64,000 nucleotides of DNA, from assembly GCA_950295325.1 (NCBI GenBank), contig OX485805.1, positions 8,122,501 to 8,186,500 of the forward strand, read 5' to 3'. Shown piece after piece: positions 1 to 51,262 of this stretch; positions within the stretch are counted from its first letter, which is position 1, and every line of letters begins with the position of its first letter. The position numbers and the translations under genes were made by a program. The notes below the pieces were generated by a model. That model had not been told where the DNA came from and made no database searches. It saw nothing but the letters and a program-made list of their open reading frames with translations. The stretch comes from Polytrichum commune. Lineage: Eukaryota > Streptophyta > Polytrichopsida > Polytrichales > Polytrichaceae.

Positions 1-1962
1 GTCTGCCGAAGTGTCGGACGTCACAATCTAACCTAATACGTGTATTGCAACCTTGAGAATTTATTCTGTGAAAGTGGCGGTTTTAGTGGAGTTTCTTATT
101 GGAAAATCAAGTGTTCATGGATTAAAATTGTAATGTTGCTGCAAAAGACCTCGGAGTTTGCCAAAGCATGACAAATGGGGGATTCTTCGCACTTAAGTTT
201 TAGTGTTCTCAATAATCTCGCCTCGCCCTTGGCACTCTGATAGTGTTAGAATTCAGCGCGCGTGCAAAGAACGTGTAGAGCAAGATGCATGAACCATGGA
301 CATCTCCGATTCCCAAGTGCACCATGTCCTTCACTACATTACGGTAGATGCGTCCATGTTTCGTGACTCGATCTTTTCGTTACCTCTTCAAGTTTTCATG
401 CGATATTTTTGAACGAATTATTCTTTTGGAGGTATGAAAGTTTATTGAAATCAAGTTTTGTGCAATAGATCCAAGCAGATCTACCAAATACCTCCTTTGT
501 TGAACAAATTTATAATTCTGCCTCCTTTTATCAAGAAGACTTCAAAACATTCAGTATTTCCTGTCAAACCGCTCGCCGTCCATCAGCGAAAGATGGTCAT
601 GAAAGTGGTGTCCTTCGCAAAAAAAAATGAGTTCTTTGTGCTTGCGTGTGTAGTGAGAAGCTCGAGGAGCTGTCGGCCTGCGGTCACCCCCTTGCCGGAC
701 GGGCAGTGAGTCCCGCCCTCCCCCACTATGCCGGGGCATCTAGCCTTCGGTGATGCCCATGCTAGTGGGGAGGCTCTCACAAGGGAGTCCGGAAGAACAT
801 TCAGGTGGTGGCCATTCAGACGCGGGGAGCAAGCTGACTACGAACCTATCAATCTAGATCCTGCACGCCTTTTGTCTGGGTCTTCATCAGAGCAGTCTTG
901 AAATTATTCGTACTTGTAGCAACTTGGCGTATTTGATCGCAGAATAGAATGTGCAACATGGAGCTTTTATATATTATCTGGTGTTTCCTCTTGTTTTGTT
1001 TGAGCAACAACAGTATTGAAAATATCCTTCCGAAATCCTGTATCAGCAATCTAGGTGTCAAGGTATTGGACGTGAAAATTATTACTTCAGACGCATCCTA
1101 AACATTACCTGCATAGTGTAGTGGGAGTGATAAAGGTACTCCATCTAATAGTTGTTACTGTATATAGAGTGTTGATTAACACTGGTAGACTCCTTACTAA
1201 GAACGGTAAAGAAGTGTACAAAGAAGAGATACCTTACTAAAGGTGCTCTATTGATTTATATACAAAAACTCGATGCTTATCTTTTCTATCTGTTGATCCT
1301 CGAATGCATGGGTCAGAGTGATTGTACTAAGTTTACTGGCTCTAGAGAGAAAGTAGTTGTTCATGTGTTTCTCTTTAGTAAATTGTGCAAGTGTTGAGCC
1401 GTCAAATATGGAACCTTGCACAGCTTGCATAGTAATCTGAGGTCATTTTCAATAGACTCTGTTTGTAGAAGGAATTAGTAACTCTGATGATTTCGGTGTG
1501 GTAATAATTTTAACATAGAGTACCTAGATATGTTCAATGTAATGTAGCCACACATTCAGAGACAGTTAGATTTCTGACTGGTGTTCCTGGTCTTTTTTAG
1601 AATAGGAAGGTAAACAAAGATGAAATTGCCTCATTGTCATATTTTCCCAAATCTTAAAAGACCCTTTTCTATTCAAGAGAAATAATTAGACCAGGCTTGC
1701 CATGGATGGTAATAGAGACGTTGCTTACGCAAAAAATTAAGAAGAAGCATGATACATGTGCTCATTAGTAGCAATACTGTTCCTGACCTGATATTTTGTT
1801 TAAATTGAATCGTATTGAGCAGTATTCTCTCTGCTCCAAGGATGATGCTGCAACTCATACATGTCAAACTCATGAAAAAGAAGGGTTTTATTGTAGCAGT
1901 TGATTTCTAGCCAGGCTAACTTGCATGTTCTAAAACGTAAAGGACAGGGGAAAAAATATGGA
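1..1962. other. no recognisable gene; 3' flank of the receptor kinase
   Basis: I see no coding exon that I can support. A GC-rich hairpin lies at about 719-772. The last ~160 bases should include the 3' untranslated region of the minus-strand receptor kinase, but no poly(A) signal stands out. Confidence 0.5.
719..772. repeat. GC-rich imperfect hairpin
   Basis: A left arm (CCCCACTATGCCGGGGCATC) pairs with a right arm reading GATGCCCATGCTAGTGGGG, separated by a loop of about 11 bases. The surrounding ~150 bases are clearly richer in GC than the AT-rich neighbourhood. The origin is unknown; it may be a fragment of an element. Confidence 0.5.
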
Positions 1963-4212
1963 TCAGGATCGACCAGAATATGAGATGCTGCTGAATGAAG
2001 CGACACTTGCAACTGAATCGGCTGCCTCGACTGCAAGTTGTAGCTGAATGGAACCATTACTGTTTTCGTTGGTAGGTTGCAAACTGTACTTAACCAATGG
2101 CTTCGACGCTGGCAGTGCAGGCACAGGTGCTTCACTTTTCAACCATTGGCCAACAAGACGCATTGTGGGTCTTGCATTAGGATCTGGGTGGCAACACCAT
2201 AAGCCCAGCTGAAGCATGGTTGTCATTTGATCTGGGTCGTAATCGGAACGTAGCCTACCATCTACAACACGGAGAAGCTCTCCAGCCTCATGTGCACGCC
2301 ACACACAGTCGGCAAGCACAATGTCGTCACTTGGGAGGCTCAGGTCCACAGTGCGCCTCCCACATGCCACTTCCAGGGCAAGGACCCCAAAGCTGTAGAT
2401 ATCCGATTTCTTGGTGGATTTAAGACTCTGTAGCATTTCCGGTGCAATATACCCCGGGGTGCCTCCACCAAGACTTGTCTTGGCCGCTGTGTCATGCTCA
2501 ATCAGCTTTGCCAACCCAAAATCACCGAGATGAGCATTGAACTCTGCATCGAGCATCACATTGTTCGGTTTGATATCTCGATGCAATATGCACTGATCCC
2601 ATTCGTCGTGCATGTACAATACGGCTGCTGCCACCCCTGTCATGATGTTGTAACGAACCTCCCATAATAATGTAGCGGGATTCACCTCTCCCTTCTTTGG
2701 AAACAACCATCTGTCAAGGCTGGTGTTGGGCATATATTCGTACACGAGAAACAACTTGTCCTGCTCTCTGCACCAACCGTGGAGCTGCACAAGATTGCGA
2801 TGGCGAATCTGACTTACAGCGCAAAGTTCTGCGAGAAATTCACGCTCACCTTCATGTGATTCACGTTTGATCCTTTTCACTGCCATTGTCGTACCATTAC
2901 TGAATATCCCCTTATAGACGTGGCCATAGCCACCGCTACCCAACAGGTTCTCGTCACTGAAATTGTTAGTAGCAACGGTGAGATCCCTGTACGTGAATTC
3001 ACGTGGCCATAGCAGATTCTTTTCTATCATGACCTTTTCCAGCCAAGGTTTCCGACCACTGGCACAGACACGAAAATACAGCACCCATAACGTTACGCCC
3101 GCAACTACAGCTACAACAGACGCCACAGAAGCCCCAACAACCAAGCCATAATTTTCCTTGCTTCTTGATGTGGTGTTTCGTGATGTGGTGTTTTGGACTG
3201 TCACGTTGGGAAGCTGGATATCGCCGCGGTGCAAGACCCGGGGGGAGTTCACTAAGTAAGTGCCCTTGATTGCCAAATCATTATTACTGCTATTCAGTTG
3301 ACTTCCCCATTCGCTGAAGTATGTCCAGTTTGGTTGCACAGTCAACTGACTTGGGGTGGGAATCACACTTATCTCTGCAAGTGCCATAGGCTTATTTCCA
3401 GCTATGGCTTGTGAAGCCTGATACCACGTCGTTGACGGGAAGCTCCAACAATCTAGTGCAACCACATCGACATACTGGTCGCCAGGGTAGAAGGAGCGCA
3501 GAGTTGAGGTAGAGTTGTCATCGGTGACGTTCACAGACCAGACCCAAATCAGATTGGTCAAGCCTTTTTCGACGGTCATGTATTCATGTGTGAGCTGGAA
3601 AAGGAGGGCGCTCTCATTGTGCCCACCCCACCACATCGACGCTACGTTGCTCCCATGCCACGGTCGCCACAACACCGGGATGCCAGCATCCTGGAGCTGT
3701 TTCAGATGAGGGTTGATAATGTTGTCGAGTTTCGTCTTCCAAGCTTGGTTCAACGGCGTGCCACTGGTGACGATGTCGGTCCACTGGGCGTCAGAAAGCG
3801 CGGTTGTTAAGTTGGAAAATGTGCAAGGTTCCGACATTGTCGGTGGGCATTGGTGCCACATGAGGCCCACGAGGGAGCCATTCGGCCATTGATTCATCGC
3901 CTCTGTAATCATCGTCACTCGGTGGTAAATGTCATCAGGAAGATAAAGAAAATCGCCCTCCCACATCGCTGGGAAGACCCCCGTGATGTCGTTGACCTTC
4001 CTGGACCACAACGCCGGTGAGGAGTTTGGCTCATTGTGTTGGCCGGTGAGTGTCGAGAGGCCAGTTCGCTGCTGCAGGTAGACAATTACGTCCTGCGGCG
4101 TTGCTGGGCGCAGTCCGTGGACACAAACAGCAGTCATACAAATCAACAAGAACGGCGACCACACAACACCACTTTGCACTAATTTGTTCACAATATCTAT
4201 TGTCAGAGCCAT
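1963..4212 (-). CDS. receptor-like kinase with GH26 mannanase-like ectodomain
   Basis: An intact intronless gene of 749 residues. Residues 15-32 are a hydrophobic signal segment. Residues 35-330 look like glycoside hydrolase family 26: TGQH (56-59), WEGDF (84-88), LMWHQCPP (117-124), WRPWH (182-186), MWWGG (193-197), YPGDQYVDVV (242-251) and a conserved KPMALAE ending at Glu280, the expected nucleophile. The acid/base Glu expected after RPWH is Gly187 (GGG), so hydrolysis is probably lost and the domain may only bind beta-mannan or a related wall glycan. Residues 355-380 are a membrane span. The kinase (about 420-695) has a GSGGYG loop (425-430), Lys446, HRD Asp546, DFG Asp564 and APE (590-592), so it should be active. 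Its sequence most resembles L-type lectin receptor kinases. The ectodomain has many N-x-S/T sites. The GH26 call rests on recalled motifs, and the ligand is unknown. Confidence 0.88.
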   Translation of the reverse strand: MALTIDIVNKLVQSGVVWSPFLLICMTAVCVHGLRPATPQDVIVYLQQRTGLSTLTGQHNEPNSSPALWSRKVNDITGVFPAMWEGDFLYLPDDIYHRVTMITEAMNQWPNGSLVGLMWHQCPPTMSEPCTFSNLTTALSDAQWTDIVTSGTPLNQAWKTKLDNIINPHLKQLQDAGIPVLWRPWHGSNVASMWWGGHNESALLFQLTHEYMTVEKGLTNLIWVWSVNVTDDNSTSTLRSFYPGDQYVDVVALDCWSFPSTTWYQASQAIAGNKPMALAEISVIPTPSQLTVQPNWTYFSEWGSQLNSSNNDLAIKGTYLVNSPRVLHRGDIQLPNVTVQNTTSRNTTSRSKENYGLVVGASVASVVAVVAGVTLWVLYFRVCASGRKPWLEKVMIEKNLLWPREFTYRDLTVATNNFSDENLLGSGGYGHVYKGIFSNGTTMAVKRIKRESHEGEREFLAELCAVSQIRHRNLVQLHGWCREQDKLFLVYEYMPNTSLDRWLFPKKGEVNPATLLWEVRYNIMTGVAAAVLYMHDEWDQCILHRDIKPNNVMLDAEFNAHLGDFGLAKLIEHDTAAKTSLGGGTPGYIAPEMLQSLKSTKKSDIYSFGVLALEVACGRRTVDLSLPSDDIVLADCVWRAHEAGELLRVVDGRLRSDYDPDQMTTMLQLGLWCCHPDPNARPTMRLVGQWLKSEAPVPALPASKPLVKYSLQPTNENSNGSIQLQLAVEAADSVASVASFSSISYSGRS

Positions 4213-5130
4213 GGTAAATGTATGTTTAAATAGTAAGAGCCGAGGGCCCAGAACCCCAATCCTCGCTCACTCTCAGGCTCATAGATTGACAGTTTAATCA
4301 GATGAGAGCCTGTACAACACTCAAGAGCATTCAGTTCTAAAGGACGCAACCTGATTCCTGAGGCTTTGACGTTCAGGCTTAAAATTCGAGACTCACATGC
4401 TGAAGCAGCAGGTTTTGCGTGCTCCTCTTGTTGCAGCACCCATGTTCTTGGATTATTTCCCCAACGACCCTGCGTCTTTGCACCACCCAGATTAAAAAGT
4501 TCATGGGCTTCATAGGATGTCAACCGATCGAGTCGACTACTTAGCACCGTGATCCTTATCGTCCATGCACAAGCCAAAACTACATGACATTGAGGTTGCA
4601 ACAGCAGAAGTGTTCAACACGCACTGAAGATGGGGATTGCGAGTAGCATTCAGAAATTTGTTTCGATCCTGCTGCGCTGGTTCAATTTCTGGTCCAACCT
4701 TGAGAGGGCCAAAATTAAGGGTGAGTGGGGGGGGTATCGGTAAACAGCAAATCGGGGCAGAGTCGGCAGACACTGACAAATTAAGTGGCTGTAGCTGGAT
4801 TCTGAAGTGATGCTGCAGTCATGCTGATCTGCTGCGGCCACATACATGCACTGGAGAGAAAATTAATGCACGACGAGGACCACCGGATGCCTCCCGACTT
4901 CTTCAAATTACAGACACAATTTTAAACAGTAAGGTAGAGGAACCGGTGCTTAAACCAACACTTTATGCTATTGCACATACACATATGGCTACATGGTTGA
5001 TATAAAAAATATATATTCATAGTAGCCTTGGTTCTAAACATAGGTACAAAGAAAGAGATATTTTTAGCCTCAATTAGATATCTGATGAATATTCAAAGTC
5101 AAAACCACTAGCTTTCTTAGACCAATATAT
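4213..5130. other. 5' flank of the GH26-like receptor kinase
   Basis: This contains the promoter and 5' leader of the minus-strand kinase, but I cannot place a TATA box or start site. Minus-strand open frames here (for example 4203-4601) show no domain and overlap the kinase start, so I treat them as leader sequence. Confidence 0.4.
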
Positions 5131-42168: not shown

Positions 42169-45100
42169 ATGGTGAAGAGAGCGTTGCTAGTTGGTTGCAA
42201 CTACCCGGGGATGCCATGTGAGCTGAAGGGACCAGCAAATGATGTGGAGCGCATGCGAAAATTGCTTGTGAAGCGCTTCAAATTTGACAATGAGGAGATT
42301 TTGCAACTGGTGGATACCGATCCTGAGGGACGGCAGCCTACTGGAGCCAACATCCGTCAATGCCTGGTATCATTTTTGAATACCTCACTTTTATTGCATT
42401 TTAAGATTGTTTGCAATGGCAGCGGATGCAGATAGGGGAGCAATTTGTAAAGTCAGGTCGAAGTGATTTGTTTTTTTGTCATCTATCTCAGAAAATATTT
42501 GAACATATGTGGTTAATGGTTTTCCAAAAGACTAATGGAAGATGTGGGGTTTAGTGGAGTTCACAGTTTGTCACAGTAATTGGTATCACTGTCCAGAAAT
42601 GTAGACTCAATAAAATATTCAATCTATAAAATCCTGCTCAGGGATATATCAACTGAATCATGGTTAGTGCCCCTATCAACCTTACCAAAGATACACATTT
42701 GAACTGCTTTTTGCAATTTGTTTATCCTGCAGCGGAAGCTCACCGAGGGAGCTGAGCGTGGAGATGTACTGTTTTTCCACTTCAGCGGGCATGGAACGCA
42801 GGTCAGTATGTCTTTTATACCAGGTTCACTTTATTCTTCGAGTGCATATGAACGGCCTGGGAAATGCTTTTGTGAATTTTAGTATTTCAAGCTAACCCAA
42901 TTGTAGCTTTGTTCAACCTGTCAGCGATTTTTGTGGGTTGCAGTTTAGAACAATTTACTCTTGTTGTATCAGCATCAGCTTATGCATTTGGAAAAATCAT
43001 ACCCCTAAGCTTAAATTTTATTGTTTGTGCAGTTACCCCCAGAAGCTGGAATGCCGGATGATACAGGATATGAGGAGTGCATTGTGCCATCTGACATGAA
43101 CCTCCTTTCAGGTTTTTCTTTCTGCATCTTTCTTCCTCTAATATGGTGTGGACATGGACATGAACATGTAGTCTACCAGAGAAAGTGACCTACTGCTGTG
43201 TAGCACCATTAAATTCCTAGAATTGAATCTGCTTCCAACTATGTGGGGTTGCTGAAACCGTGAACCTTCCACACAAGTGGTTTGATGATGATATTTGTGA
43301 GATGCTGTTGTGTGGAAGCGATTCTCATTTTGCAGTGAACAATATTCTATTAGGGCAGTTAACTGTACATTGTACGTGGCAAGAGTTGTCTCTCAAGAGG
43401 ATTGGAGGCACTTCCACTGTAATAAAATTTCAAAAATGCCGAAGACTTTGGAATTCCCTAATTGTCGATCCTACTACAAATTGCTGATTCCCTGCATGCT
43501 CCTGAAATGTGATCAGATGATGACTTCCGCGAGCTTGTGGATAAAATTCCACCTGGAGTAAACTTCACCTTCTTAGCTGACGCATGTCACAGCGGAGGAC
43601 TCATTGATAGCGAGAAAGAGCAAATTAGTGATAGGCACGCCCATGGGGCAGGCTTATCTCCAGGAAGGAGAACTAAACCAAGACCTGAGGCAAGACCAGG
43701 AAATCGACCCCCGGTACGTGCAGGCGATGAGGGTCTAATGGGACCAGTAGTTGCTGATGGAATAGAATTAGGCCGAGCTGGTGCAGATCAAAGTGGGGGT
43801 AAAACAAATTCTCGGATGGGAGCTGTTGGTCAAGCATTAGGTTCCCGTTTCAATCATCGAGGTTCACCTGGCGATCATCATGGAGATGGAGAAGTTGACC
43901 CTCAGGATATAGATGCGTATGGGCAACAACCCGAATCGCCTTTTGAAAATAAATACACCGAGGGAGGCTCAGCTTATGCACTAGATCATCAAAATTTGCA
44001 TGAGAATGGGGACACAGGGGAGCATACAGGCACACGGTTTAAAGTAGACCAAAGCTCAGTGGTGTCTCCACGTGTTAAAACACAGGAGAAACAGAAACAT
44101 AAAAAGTCGGGACATACAGATCGACTTGGGTATTGTACAGATCACACAAATTTCATGAAGAGCACGTCAATGGAGCCTAATGTAGGTTATGTAGTTGAAA
44201 GCATTGGGTATACCTCGGACGTAAGGTATATGCAAAGTGCACCAAGTGAGCCCATGACAGGGTTTGCTGACAGAGGATTTGGATACACACCAGAGGGAAT
44301 GTTTGAGGTGCCTGCAGGGAGGCCATATTCAGGAAGCTATAACCCATCAGAAGAAGCATACCACGGCCCTCCCATTGGGTACCCTGCAGAAGATGTTGAA
44401 TTTGAAAGGCCTGCAAAACCTTTGAGGTCCAGGGTGGATGAATTTGGGCACCCTTACGAGAGGCCTCCCAGAGCTGCCATACACGATGAAGGCTTTGAGT
44501 TTCCACCTCGAGGGTCTTATGAGAGGCCTTTGAGGCCCATGGCTGATGATAATTATTTGTACTCTTCTGGCGGAGCTTTTGCAAGGCCTTTGAGGCCCTT
44601 GGATGAGGGCTTTCCTGAAGCTTCTGAAGGAGTTTACAGGAGACCTTACGGAGCAGAAGATACTTATGGCAGGCCTGAGGACTCCTATGACAGGTAGGAC
44701 CTCATCAAGTTTCTAACAAGTCCATTTAGGTTGCCGGTAAATTCTCATTGAAATGATATGACCTGGTTAATAGATTTAAACCACAGCCCTGTTTTAATTG
44801 CTATCTACATGATGTGAGGTGATACTTTGACTCAACTGAGATTATGTAGGTTCATTTACATAAGTGCTGAGCATAGATAATTACATTAGGTCAAAACAGC
44901 TTTGAATGCTTCTTGTAGCAATTGACAGGGGATTCCTACTCACCAAATTATGTCTTATTTGAATTCCATAAGCAAAAGTTATAAGGGATCGAAGATTGAT
45001 TTGTAGATGACCTCAAACCAACATGGGAGCCTGATGTTAAGGTGGTGGACATTCTCAGAATCAATTAGTACTTATTATGGGGTTATTCTGCAAGATTTTA

Positions 45101-46643
45101 GGCTGTTGGTTTTAGCACCATCTACTTCAATTTAGAAAATTGAGTGACCTTGTCTTCATAAGCTGATCAACTGCTAAGGAACTCAACATGTCATGGTGGT
45201 GGATATTGACACTGCTTGTTGACTTAGCTGTGATAAATTAGTCTTTCATGGGCTCACTTCATGACAGAAATAATTTATGCTTCAAGAACAGCGTCATCAC
45301 ATACATCTGATGTATGTGGAGCTTGTTGATGTTTTTTCTGCTTTTGCAGGTATGGAGAACCTCCGCATGATTTTGATCCTAGAGATGGAGAGAGATTGAA
45401 GTATGACAGAGAAGGATACGGGAGGGGTGATGATCGGCAAACAGAGTATGAAGATGGGAGTGGATATGTTGACAGTCGATCCCCACGATATTCCAAGTAT
45501 CCAGAAAGTGGGGACAATCGTGGTGCATACCCAGAGACAGGTCAAAACAACAGTCATTACCGCAGAGATGACAGGAATGGTTACTTGGGCAGACCTCATC
45601 ACACCCCTGTGAAATATAAATCTCTAGATTGGCAGACGTTGATGGAAATTCTGAGTGAACGCACAGGTCAGAAAGTCAAGCAACGCAGCATACGAAGAAC
45701 TCTTTATAATATTTTTGGAGAAGAGGCAAGCCCAACAGTGAAATTTTTTGTGAACGAAGTCTACAACCACCTTGAGGTGAGATCTGTGGGTTCACTTTTA
45801 ATTGGGGATTGAATTTATTCTGCAATTGCGTAACTTTAGCCATTGATGGCATCCTCAAGTTATAAGTTATTGAGATGTCCTACAGAAAATTTGTGCAGTT
45901 TGTAAATTTTCTGCTCATACATACAACCTTCAATACTAGGGGAATCCTTAAATTCTGATTAAAAGCACCTGATTCCAACCTTTATTTAGTGATCTAGAAG
46001 CTTAAAGCCCTAAAATGGTTGCTGATATGAGCACTTGTCCCACTAAAGAAGTTATATCAAAAAGCCATTTTCATGTTCCCTTTCTTCCATCCAACATTTC
46101 TAGTACTTTAATAACAAGATGGATATTATGCTTACATGTTTATGTTGGATATAGCAGATTGGAGCTGGTGGTGGCGGTGATAATGGTAATGGTAACCATC
46201 ATGGTATCTTAAGCAAAATTGGAGGCTTGGCAAGCAATCTTCTCAAAACTAAAATCACAGATTCCCCAACGGCGGGTGGGGTTCATAGGGGGAGTGGAAC
46301 CCCTACTGGCAGAGAAGGTGGGAGCATTTCTCAATATATCCAGGACTGGTACAGTCAAAGACAACGTCGTAGAAGCAGGGATCCAGGCATCCTTATCAGT
46401 GCGTGTGAGCCACAAGAAATGTCAGCTGATGCCAACCCCACCAATGATCCCAAACACGCATATGGTGCACTTAGTAACGCTATTCAGACGGTAGTTGGCC
46501 AATCTCGTGGATTTCTTACAAACCGGGAGGTTGTCATGGCTGCTAGAAAGTTGCTTAGCCAGCAAGGTTACAGATACCAACACCCGTGTCTTTACTGCAC
46601 CGACCGAAAGGCAGACAGACTTTTTTTGTGTGCAGTCAAATGA
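42169..46643 (+). CDS. type II metacaspase with greatly lengthened linker
   Basis: A cysteine protease that cuts after Arg/Lys; plant type II metacaspases are calcium-activated and act in wounding and programmed cell death. The coding exons are 42,169-42,366, 42,733-42,801, 43,033-43,111, 43,517-44,693, 45,350-45,776 and 46,158-46,643. Phases join cleanly to give 811 residues. The p20-like part (1-160) has CNYPG, the catalytic HFSGHGT with His86 and DACHSGG with Cys139. These are the same positions I recall for Arabidopsis metacaspase 4. The p10-like part (about 598-811) has SLDWQTLMEILSERTG, FGEEASP, ILISACEPQEMSADANP, AYGALSNA and CLYCTD. The linker is ~435 residues, against ~150-230 recalled for usual type II proteins. 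It is low-complexity, with a ~20-residue (E/A)RPLRP repeat (411-508) and a ~26-residue GYT repeat (about 315-376). No stop or frameshift is seen. Confidence 0.9.
44694..45349 (+). other. metacaspase intron 4, with R3-like terminus
   Basis: The donor GTAGGA follows ATGACAG and the acceptor is TTGCAG. Near 45,105 the intron contains GTTGGTTTTAGCACCATCTA, very like the conserved end of repeat R3, with a similar following segment (CTTGTCTTCATAA). It may be a remnant of an R3 insertion. Confidence 0.45.
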
Positions 46644-48048: not shown

Positions 48049-49389
48049 TCACTTCTTAGGTATGCACTTCCTTGCATCCACTGATGGTTTGAAGATAATA
48101 TCTTTCAGACCCTTACCCACCAGGTCATTGTAGAAGGTTCGATACTCCAAGGTATCCCCACTATTTTTCTGCAACTCCACCATGTGAATGCAAGGAGCAA
48201 CCTCAATGACCTCAGTGGCTATGGAGAGATGGCCTTTCCTGCCCACTTTATCTCCTTCCAGTTTCATCATGTGGTCATGGGTGCGAGCATGGAAGCCCAA
48301 AGGCTTTGCAGCCGACTCGATGGCACTCATAATGTCCTTGCAAGGTTTCGTGCTCTTGAAGATGGTGTCCTGCTTCGTCTCGAAAAGGGGAGAGAGGTTG
48401 AAATTATCTGCTTGCAGATGGTTGATAAGCTCAAAAGCATTCATCGTCACATAGGGTTGATGAGTGCTCACTTCGGTAGCCATGTCGTCCACGTTATGAT
48501 CACTAAATTTTTTTTCAACATCATCATCACGATCATGGACATCCTGCACATCCTCAGAGTCATCGAACTTGGCAGGCTTGTATCCCTTCTTAAACCACGT
48601 GTCCTGGTAAATCTGTGCAGCGTTCATACGAGTCTTCGGATTAGGATCCAAAATTCTTGTGATGATTTTCTCTGCACCTGTTGAAAACCAAGATGGGAAC
48701 GTGAAGTCTGAACGCATGATCTTTTTGTACAATGCCGGTTGATGGGTGTCATCGAAAGGCAAGTAGCCAGCCATGAGAACAAATAAGATGACACCGCACG
48801 ACCATAAGTCTGCCGTGGAGCCATGGTATCCATTATTTCTGATGACTTCCGGTGCAATGTAATTCGGAGTTCCACACGCCGTATGTAACAACCCATCACG
48901 TCCACATTGCTGGGGTAAGGCGCTAAGACCAAAGTCGGATATCTTCAAGTTGCCTTGATCATCTAGGAGGAGGTTTTCTGGCTTCAGATCCCGATGGTAC
49001 ACATTCCGGCTGTGACAGTAATCAACCGCATCTATGAGTTGCTGGAAGTACTTCCTGGCTTCATCCTCTCGTAATCTTCCATACTGCTTGATTTTGTCAT
49101 AAAGCTCCCCGCCTTTCACGTACTCCAATACGATGAATATCCTCTTCTTGGTGGCTACGACCTCCCGAAGCTGGACAATGTAAGGATGCCTCACCAACTT
49201 CATGGTGGAAATCTCGCTCTTGATCTGCTTCACCGTCATGTGTTGCTGCACGATCATCTCCTTCTCCAACACTTTTATGGCCACAAGCTCATTAGTCTCT
49301 GTGTCCCTTGCAAGCTTCACCTTCGCAAAACTGCCATGGCCGATGGTTTTACCGAGCACATACTTCCCGATGACACGCTTGGGATCCAT
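48049..49389 (-). CDS. CBL-interacting protein kinase (CIPK/SnRK3), intronless
   Basis: A Ser/Thr kinase that is activated by calcineurin B-like calcium sensors and phosphorylates ion transporters and other targets. I place the start at the ATG at 49,387-49,389 (MDPKRVIGKYVLG). An in-frame ATG 16 codons upstream (49,437) gives a 462-residue version, but family members normally begin close to the kinase domain. In the 462-residue numbering: glycine loop GHGSFAKV (33-40), VAIK Lys55, HRD Asp150, DFG Asp168, HTACGTPNY activation loop and APE (195-197). The regulatory region has the NAF motif (MNAFELI, 332-338), which binds CBL and self-inhibits, then a PPI-type segment and FYNDLVGKGLKDI near the end. 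The length fits the family. All key residues are present and no intron interrupts the frame. Confidence 0.93.
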   Translation of the reverse strand: MDPKRVIGKYVLGKTIGHGSFAKVKLARDTETNELVAIKVLEKEMIVQQHMTVKQIKSEISTMKLVRHPYIVQLREVVATKKRIFIVLEYVKGGELYDKIKQYGRLREDEARKYFQQLIDAVDYCHSRNVYHRDLKPENLLLDDQGNLKISDFGLSALPQQCGRDGLLHTACGTPNYIAPEVIRNNGYHGSTADLWSCGVILFVLMAGYLPFDDTHQPALYKKIMRSDFTFPSWFSTGAEKIITRILDPNPKTRMNAAQIYQDTWFKKGYKPAKFDDSEDVQDVHDRDDDVEKKFSDHNVDDMATEVSTHQPYVTMNAFELINHLQADNFNLSPLFETKQDTIFKSTKPCKDIMSAIESAAKPLGFHARTHDHMMKLEGDKVGRKGHLSIATEVIEVAPCIHMVELQKNSGDTLEYRTFYNDLVGKGLKDIIFKPSVDARKCIPKK

Positions 49390-51262
49390 CGCTACAACAG
49401 AAAGCTCATATTCTGCAGAAAGATATCCCGAAAGCAATTTGAAGTTTGCTCAATCCTCAGACTCTCGCTCCTGATCCTCAATCCTTCCCCAATATCTCAA
49501 GAAAGAGCATCGAATCCATCATCATTGATGTATATTTTTCCCGATTTGATGTCAACCTCATGTTCTTCAAAACACATGAATTCGTTCAATCAACTGGTAT
49601 GTGGGTTTGGGGTGACACCAAATCCCAACCAAAACCCTTACCCTCAAGACTTCCCTTTGTGGGACATCGAGATGTTTGAATAGTATGGTTTTTTGCTAAA
49701 TAAAAGTAAGAGCCAAAAATTAAAAGCTAAAGCTAAAGTAAGAGGAGTTTGCAAGGGGCCTAAGATACTCTTTTGTAGGTTTTAATTTTATTTTTTTCAT
49801 TTAATTTTTACTTTTATGTTTTTATACATTTTACTTCTTCATGAAATAAAATGAAATGGAATATAAAGCCTGGGAAGCCAAAAGGTTTATGAGACTACAA
49901 GTACATCAAGTTGGCGTCAAAAGAGCTAGTTCCCTAAAATAATATCCAAAAGTGGCCTTTGTAAGATGGTCACTTTTGGGCGTTTCAACTTCATAATACA
50001 TTTTGAAATAGGGAAGGAAACCTATCTCTAATGGAGTTGTAGAGGGGACAGTCTAACACACAGTGTGCCTCATTTGCCTTTTAACCTTTGGCTTCCCGGA
50101 TTTAAAATAAGTTTCATTTCACTTGCGGTCCTTGATGGTCCTTTGTTACCTCCACACAATTTCTTGGATACCTCTTATTGATCTTTCAACTAGGCTTGTG
50201 TACATGACACATGTGCACATGTCGTACATAAATGTTTGGGTGGTTACATAAGACAATGTCTATAATAAGGTTTCAAACACACAAACATACATGATACGAT
50301 TTATGAACTTTGTGAAGCCCACATAAATTGTGTAGATGGACGTATATTAAGACCCTATGTCATTTAAGGGTTAAGCATTTGCAAAGCCTAGACTGCTTCC
50401 ATAGTGTGCTCAAAGTAACCGAGTGCATGATCACCTTCACTAAATGCTGTCTTTTCCACCTTCCCAAATTCTTGCAACTACAAGGCTCCATAATCCAGCA
50501 GCTATGACTAACTAGGAAATTTCTTGTAGCATAGCTCGCGAGCCGAATGCCTGTTTGGCTTGTAATTTTTATTGAATTTGGATGTCAACATGTCCACAAG
50601 TTTCAAAGCAAGATTGTAATGCTTTTTGCAATCTGGTACACGACCCATCCAATAGTAATGTACACTCAAATCATAGAAATCTTGTTGGAGATGGTATTAT
50701 GTTTGATTCCCCACCTTCTCTTACTTGGACACAATTCTAGATAATTTAACCTTCTATGTGGAATTCAAGCCTGAAAAATTATTGAGGACATTGACCAAGT
50801 TCTACGTACTCTTGCAGTTTCGTATTAACCTATATTTTTTTGCAGTGAGTTGAGATGAACTTGAGTACAACCTGAACCTTTTCTCTACTTAACATCTTAC
50901 AATGAATTACCAACATCTACATAATCATGTGAAGAGGCTGAGGTTTTTCCCACATTCTAACAGTTGTGTAAAGAAATATAGGCGTTTTTTTGACAAAAAT
51001 ATGTCTAAGTATATTCTCCAAAATAAATTGTCATCGAACTTCAGACTTATTTTTATGCTATGCCGGCTAATAACCTACGGTAAACTCCTCAATATTTCTA
51101 TAGATTTTTTAATTTTAGTTTTTCCTCTCAATCAAAACTGCTCTATGGATACGATGCACCTCTAAATTGTCATTGAGAGTCTTATCCACAAATCACATAG
51201 TGTTTTGCTCCCAAGTCTTTGTTTAAACTTGTCAAACTTATTCCTCCTCAATACTTCTTGGG
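49390..51262. other. CIPK 5' flank and intergenic sequence
   Basis: The first few hundred bases should hold the CIPK promoter and leader. A partial R1 copy lies at about 50,235-50,365. No gene is seen. Confidence 0.5.
50235..50365 (+). repeat. dispersed repeat R1, partial copy 4
   Basis: It matches the distal part of R1 copy 2: TTACATAAGACAATGT, ATAATAAGGTTT, GTGAAGCCCACATAAATTGT and GTATATTAAGACCC. Confidence 0.6.

Follow-up and report, generated by a model that had tools for sequence, protein, structure and literature searches.

A moss receptor-like kinase with a GH26-homologous ectodomain that lacks the catalytic acid/base glutamate

Introduction

A gene of the moss Polytrichum commune joins a domain of the glycosidase family GH26 to a protein kinase. 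The question raised by this locus is whether the GH26 domain still works as a mannanase or has taken on the sensing role in a plant receptor, and where it came from. The initial annotation described plant endo-mannanases as GH5 enzymes, in agreement with the accessible text of a 2013 paper that places all plant mannanases in GH5 subfamily 7 (PMC3928506). Its contrast with GH26 as a mainly bacterial and fungal family needs to be widened, because GH26 is also reported, in the portions available of two papers, from green algae, as expanded in lichen photobionts (PMC9434271) and as present in filamentous Zygnema (PMC11096116). Mannan oligosaccharides trigger plant immune responses, and the system that detects them had not been identified according to the available text of a 2023 review (PMC10139151). 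The window analyzed here is the whole stretch of 64,000 nucleotides at positions 8,122,501 to 8,186,500 of contig OX485805.1 (assembly GCA_950295325.1).

Reading frame and domain layout

The locus had been annotated as one uninterrupted frame with a signal segment, a GH26-type domain, a membrane span and an active-looking kinase, and each of these elements was recovered (Table 1). The gene has no intron across its 749 codons. In 300 first-order Markov resamples of window positions 1501 to 4700, no stop-free frame exceeded 268 codons, so a chance origin of the frame was ruled out. A six-frame search of the genome, with 60 of 1,077 candidates scored, gave a full-length 100% match to the receptor at the window locus only.

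Table 1. Features of the receptor gene (window positions) and location of the secreted paralog.
Feature	Position	Strand	Description and basis
GH26-like receptor kinase, whole CDS	1963..4212	-	Single exon; 749 aa + stop; ATG at 4212, stop at 1963
N-terminal signal segment	4114..4212	-	Residues 1-33; hydrophobic stretch 16-34; cleavage point inferred
GH26-homologous ectodomain	3208..4110	-	Residues 35-335; Pfam PF02156, 1.6e-30; phmmer 6q75, 1.7e-45; aligned to L001 and L013
Codon GGG, Gly187, at the acid/base glutamate position of GH26	3652..3654	-	Alignment with bacterial rows and secreted paralog
Codon TCG, Ser192, at the active-site tryptophan position	3637..3639	-	+5 residues from acid/base; alignment
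Codon GAG, Glu280, catalytic nucleophile kept	3373..3375	-	Glu in 47/47 rows
Asn/Ser/Thr-rich linker	3151..3207	-	Residues 336-354; three N-glycosylation sequons
Membrane span	3079..3150	-	Residues 355-378; hydropathy maximum 2.38 (19-residue stretch from 357)
Protein kinase domain, RD type	2158..2958	-	Residues 419-685; Pfam 3e-47; motifs; best solved relative 6cth
C-terminal cytoplasmic tail	1966..2157	-	Residues 686-749
Secreted GH26 paralog	Contig C7, L001 1026-1238 + 1501-2268		Two exons, 262-base GT-AG intron, 326 residues; exon structure read from homology

The profile search proposed with the annotation matched the GH26 family at residues 39 to 317 with 107 bits against a cut-off of 20.2, covering positions 9 to 296 of the 311-position profile. 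The best solved GH26 match was 6q75 (159 bits), and the aligned ectodomain extends over the mature portion of the secreted protein encoded by the paralog. A structure model built from a three-row alignment was weak (pLDDT 55.9, pTM 0.64) and is used solely as agreement with the sequence matches. When it was compared with the PDB by Foldseek, the top match was again 6q75 (E 3.4e-16, TM 0.65). The first 29 rows consisted of 27 mannanase or GH26 structures and two of the engineered protein 3tp4, all of which were also phmmer sequence matches.

The five kinase motifs sought (GSGGYG, AVKR, HRDIKPNN, DFGLAK and APE) were all present. Secretion and topology were inferred from hydropathy. Residues 33 to 355 contain eleven N-glycosylation sequons compared with a shuffle mean of 4.2, a number reached in 1 of 2,000 shuffles, which agrees with a secretory route. 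The Pfam scan found no Lectin_legB match up to E 0.1 and no GH18 ectodomain; the families matched were GH26 and kinase- or phosphotransferase-type only.

Two separate genes, a misassembly or bacterial contamination could in principle give the appearance of a fusion. These readings were rejected, and we regard an artefact as very improbable. The frame is single and stop-free within a 59-Mb contig, the same window carries a NAF-domain (CIPK-type) kinase, and the paralog, on another large contig, is interrupted by a GT-AG intron. The third-position GC content is 64% in the GH26 half and 50% in the kinase half, compared with 97% in the nearest bacterial relative.

Two other loci of the window were read. 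The NAF-domain kinase, of the CBL-interacting type, lies in a single frame at 48049-49437 (-). At 43537-46643 (+), exon-like frames form a probable metacaspase, with a weak Peptidase_C14 match (4.7e-06) in one of the three frames scanned and no match in the remaining two. Elsewhere in the genome, two large contigs carry short, broken pieces of PsaA/PsaB (C4:47707642-47707821 and C5:337267-337371), probably plastid DNA that moved to the nucleus.

A secreted GH26 paralog in the same genome

The genome searched comprises 408 Mb in 64 contigs. Six contigs measured 42 to 78 Mb and matches on C6 extend beyond 40.9 Mb; seven large contigs could suit the karyotype of Polytrichaceae. PsaB encoded on contig C8 scored highest against chains 8htu, 6l35 and 7ksq (1701-1705 bits; next 1667), which are Physcomitrium structures, in agreement with a moss. 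Six-frame searches with the GH26 family and with the bacterial protein found two GH26 genes, the receptor and a secreted paralog (Table 1). The paralog has a signal-like N-terminus, both catalytic glutamates and no kinase in its frame. Homology of the receptor extends to the last residues of the paralog (VLHRGD), beyond which the linker and span of the receptor begin; it seems, therefore, that an entire secreted GH26 protein was set ahead of the span and kinase. The intron of the paralog is missing from the receptor gene. A search of the genome for GH5 at the family level gave three frames, and a search for Glyco_hydro_18 gave 11 matches.

Catalytic residues of the GH26 domain

The receptor domain was aligned with the secreted moss paralog and 45 bacterial GH26 rows. 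At the acid/base column, the secreted paralog and every bacterial row have Glu, and the receptor alone has another residue, Gly187 (46 of 47 rows with Glu). Its HE motif is thus altered to His186 followed by Gly187. The codon is GGG in the receptor and GAG in the paralog, one transition apart. Because the acid/base glutamate is missing, the ectodomain is described here as a GH26 homologue and is not classed as an active GH26 enzyme.

Twenty-one columns show no variation among the 45 bacterial rows; the receptor keeps 20 of them and differs only at the acid/base column, and the secreted paralog keeps all 21. Across the 64 columns conserved at 97% or more in the 39 near bacterial rows, there were 9 departures in the receptor and 11 in the paralog; on this wider measure, therefore, the receptor has not changed more than the paralog. 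Changes private to the receptor were found at 51 of the 196 columns where the paralog and the bacterial relative L013 agree. They were not clustered at the catalytic loop. Their greatest density fell elsewhere, at 303 to 317, and was reached by 3,154 of 5,000 shuffles, and a signature of catalytic-loop remodeling was rejected.

A second active-site change is the Ser at position 192 of the receptor, where 44 of 45 bacterial rows and the secreted paralog have Trp. The equivalent tryptophans, Trp170 of YpenMan26A at subsite -1 (PMC6381184, accessible text) and W206 of BoMan26B at subsite +1 (PMC6556568), line the cleft. The replacement by Ser may weaken glycan binding.

The fungal enzyme YpenMan26A, in which Glu165 is the acid/base and Glu257 the nucleophile, provides a comparison for the loss of the acid/base residue. 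In the portion of the source at hand, its E165Q mutant was approximately 360-fold slower, and according to that text and the title of entry 6hpf this form was crystallized with a galactomanno-oligosaccharide (PMC6381184). Acid/base loss is therefore compatible with binding. Catalysis lost and binding kept would be the natural reading of the receptor domain, which is not a demonstration of it.

Two other functions would also be consistent with parts of this pattern. The protein could be a membrane-tethered enzyme that retains the ability to cut mannan or to transfer glycosyl units, using another residue or water as the acid/base, with its kinase controlled otherwise. The intact nucleophile and the 20 retained invariant residues would suit such an enzyme, as would the low residual activity of E165Q, which its authors say in the available text could also be explained by misreading (PMC6381184). 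However, glycine is incapable of proton donation, and the glutamate that it replaces is found in every bacterial row, which makes continued catalysis quite unlikely. The domain could alternatively be a decoy that imitates GH26 enzymes, either the one secreted by the moss itself or microbial ones, and senses an inhibitor or effector protein that binds such enzymes. An intact secreted paralog is present in the genome, and a lost catalytic residue on a retained fold fits a decoy equally well, but a pure protein decoy would not need 20 of the 21 strictly invariant residues. We consider a decoy unlikely and favor glycan binding by the crippled domain.

Kinase half and its lectin-receptor relatives

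The solved kinase nearest to the receptor was 6cth, a ConA-like lectin kinase, with 315.8 bits; BAK1 was next with 218 bits. In a tree of 20 kinase domains from the genome, the receptor and 17 others were separated from L076 and L077 at 100/100. The members of this group of 18 are mostly L-type lectin kinases, and the receptor took no supported position among them. The Pfam scan of 16 frames found in the genome with the window protein showed Lectin_legB in 12. In L076, a B_lectin match fell just below the cut-off (32.1 versus 32.4 bits). The sequence and tree place the kinase half with the L-type lectin receptor kinases, as had been proposed. The further suggestion that a lectin ectodomain was swapped for a glycosidase-derived one is supported by the presence of GH26 where Lectin_legB is lacking.

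By score, the nearest kinases in the genome were L004 and L005, followed by L-type lectin kinases (60 of 1,077 candidates scored). No ectodomain was found in the frame of L005. L004 (1414-2898, minus strand; C2:47894301-47895428), the best-scoring match with 49% over residues 350 to 721, carries a phytocyanin-like ectodomain (Cu_bind_like, 3.2e-10), a span-like stretch and an L-type-lectin-like kinase. It is a second non-lectin ectodomain on this kinase type, and therefore suggests that lectin-receptor kinases serve as a chassis for ectodomain exchange in P. commune.

Other arrangements were seen among these kinases. In L075 (506-2269, minus strand; C5:41003253), B_lectin, S_locus_glycop and a partial kinase share one frame. 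Its kinase groups with L074 (99/97) and with the L-type lectin kinase L012 (85/79), within the 18-member set, and a further ectodomain exchange is possible there. Four near-alike L-type lectin receptor kinase genes (L006 to L009, of which L006 was Pfam-scanned) form a local array of approximately 130 kb at C3:25.95-26.08 Mb.

Bacterial relatives and origin of the GH26 domain

The closest relative found outside the moss was L013 (1381-2454, plus strand) of Streptantibioticus silvisoli SL54, which is 59% identical to the receptor and 68 to 69% identical to the secreted paralog. A scan of one genome per species, covering 84,980 bacterial and archaeal species, returned 40 stretches and this one relative; the scan used two short strict motifs, so other relatives may be missed. 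Among genomes drawn from the order around L013, 142 of 391 matched it at E 0.001 or better. Among those drawn from its family, hits to the moss paralog reached 1e-60 or better in 20 of 394, with 44 to 57% identity and 69% for L013, and among those drawn from its phylum 2 of 396 matched at 1e-40 or better; each of the three counts includes the genome of L013 itself. Members 48 to 53% identical to L013 were found on Nonomuraea, Streptomyces, Deinococcus and Eleftheria replicons. Among viral contigs, 12 stretches matched, two of which were GH26 relatives at 32 to 33%.

Two trees, one of 47 and one of 38 rows, united L013 with both moss domains in a single group at 100/99 and left the other bacteria outside. 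The two moss genes were the only eukaryotic rows, which in part predetermines their position among bacteria. What is informative is that one actinobacterial gene lies inside the group of the moss pair while the other bacteria lie outside. Because of this grouping, horizontal transfer between bacteria and the moss is likely. In the best trees, L013 paired with the secreted moss gene (97/80 and 97/76), and the arrangement with a moss-only pair was not rejected (p-AU 0.186 and 0.16). The pattern may reflect a single acquisition from a bacterium like L013 with later duplication, two transfers, or transfer from the moss to Streptantibioticus, and L013 may accordingly be the nearest relative of the donor or the product of a moss-to-bacterium transfer. 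A eukaryotic sister or go-between is also possible given the composition of the tree, and naming a donor must await the addition of published green-algal GH26 sequences.

The receptor branch, at 0.69, is the longest of the clade (secreted paralog 0.33, L013 0.18), and relaxed constraint is therefore possible. The gene could then be a recent or decaying fusion that has no settled role and whose outer domain is drifting, an explanation that the single transition at the acid/base codon would also fit. An undamaged 749-codon frame, the kinase motifs checked and the 20 intact invariant GH26 columns argue against drift, and we consider this explanation fairly unlikely.

Proposed function

Our main reading, to which we give a probability of roughly 55%, is that the GH26 domain was gained from bacteria as a mannanase and, crippled in catalysis, turned into a sensor that probably binds mannan and is mounted on a lectin-receptor chassis. 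It starts from the observed frame, domains, residue loss, paralog, kinase type and relatedness. The ancestor of the outer domain would have been a secreted GH26 beta-mannanase, most likely of actinobacteria, and the direction of transfer would have been from bacterium to moss. The span and kinase would derive from an L-type lectin receptor kinase. The enzyme would have become a crippled, lectin-like binder when Gly187 replaced the acid/base glutamate while the nucleophile and the remaining strictly invariant residues stayed in place. As to ligand and signaling, beta-1,4-mannan or glucomannan fragments would most likely be bound in the old substrate cleft, and the signal would be passed through the span to the kinase at the plasma membrane. 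The direct perception of mannan suggested in the initial annotation is plausible. Three findings are new beyond that annotation: glycine in place of the acid/base glutamate, a secreted paralog that is intact, and the affinity to actinobacteria.

A more specific and rather doubtful proposal is that a captured actinobacterial mannanase was split into a pair, in which the catalytic secreted GH26 would release manno-oligosaccharides and the receptor, without its acid/base residue and fused to the lectin chassis, would sense them. If this is true, one member of the pair would be a receptor that detects mannan fragments, for which the plant detection system has been described as unknown. The receptor is a ready candidate for such a sensor: its ligand class can be guessed from its mannanase ancestry, and the question of mannan detection therefore becomes testable. 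If the bacterial origin is true, a transferred enzyme was turned into the sensing portion of a plant receptor, and the same genome offers an intact related enzyme gene for comparison.

Comparison with known systems

No report of a GH26-kinase fusion was found in the literature searched, which was that open without subscription, and the available text of PMC10834447, PMC12448838 and PMC7921929 likewise yielded no receptor of the GH26 type. The closest precedent is the GH18-type receptor kinases such as tobacco CHRK1, in which a glycosidase-family ectodomain and an intracellular kinase are likewise combined in one plant protein. The likeness is one of described architecture, and the family differs, CHRK1 carrying a GH18 (chitinase) domain and the moss receptor GH26. 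CHRK1 is not known to have chitinase activity. The accessible text of one paper cites 91 plant sequences of GH18-type receptor kinases and predicts the CHRK1-type GH18 domain to be enzymatic (PMC5485988).

The receptor resembles the GH26 beta-mannanases 6q75 (Muricauda GH26A), 3zm8 (Podospora) and YpenMan26A in sequence, predicted fold, the nucleophile Glu280 and 20 of 21 invariant residues. Unlike them, it is anchored to a kinase, lacks the acid/base glutamate and has Ser in place of the active-site Trp. It also differs from the Streptantibioticus protein, which stands alone and has both catalytic glutamates as well as its far higher third-position GC content. In its proposed role, the sensing of wall oligosaccharides, the receptor is like CORK1/IGP1 and other receptors of cell-wall fragments (PMC10139151, available text), whereas CORK1 is, by the title of PMC9563578, an LRR-malectin kinase. 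It shares with the L-type lectin receptor kinases its kinase half and differs from them in having a GH26 domain where the legume-lectin domain would be. The protein is thus a glycosidase-derived receptor kinase, in which the glycosidase family, GH26, and the lectin-receptor chassis are new.
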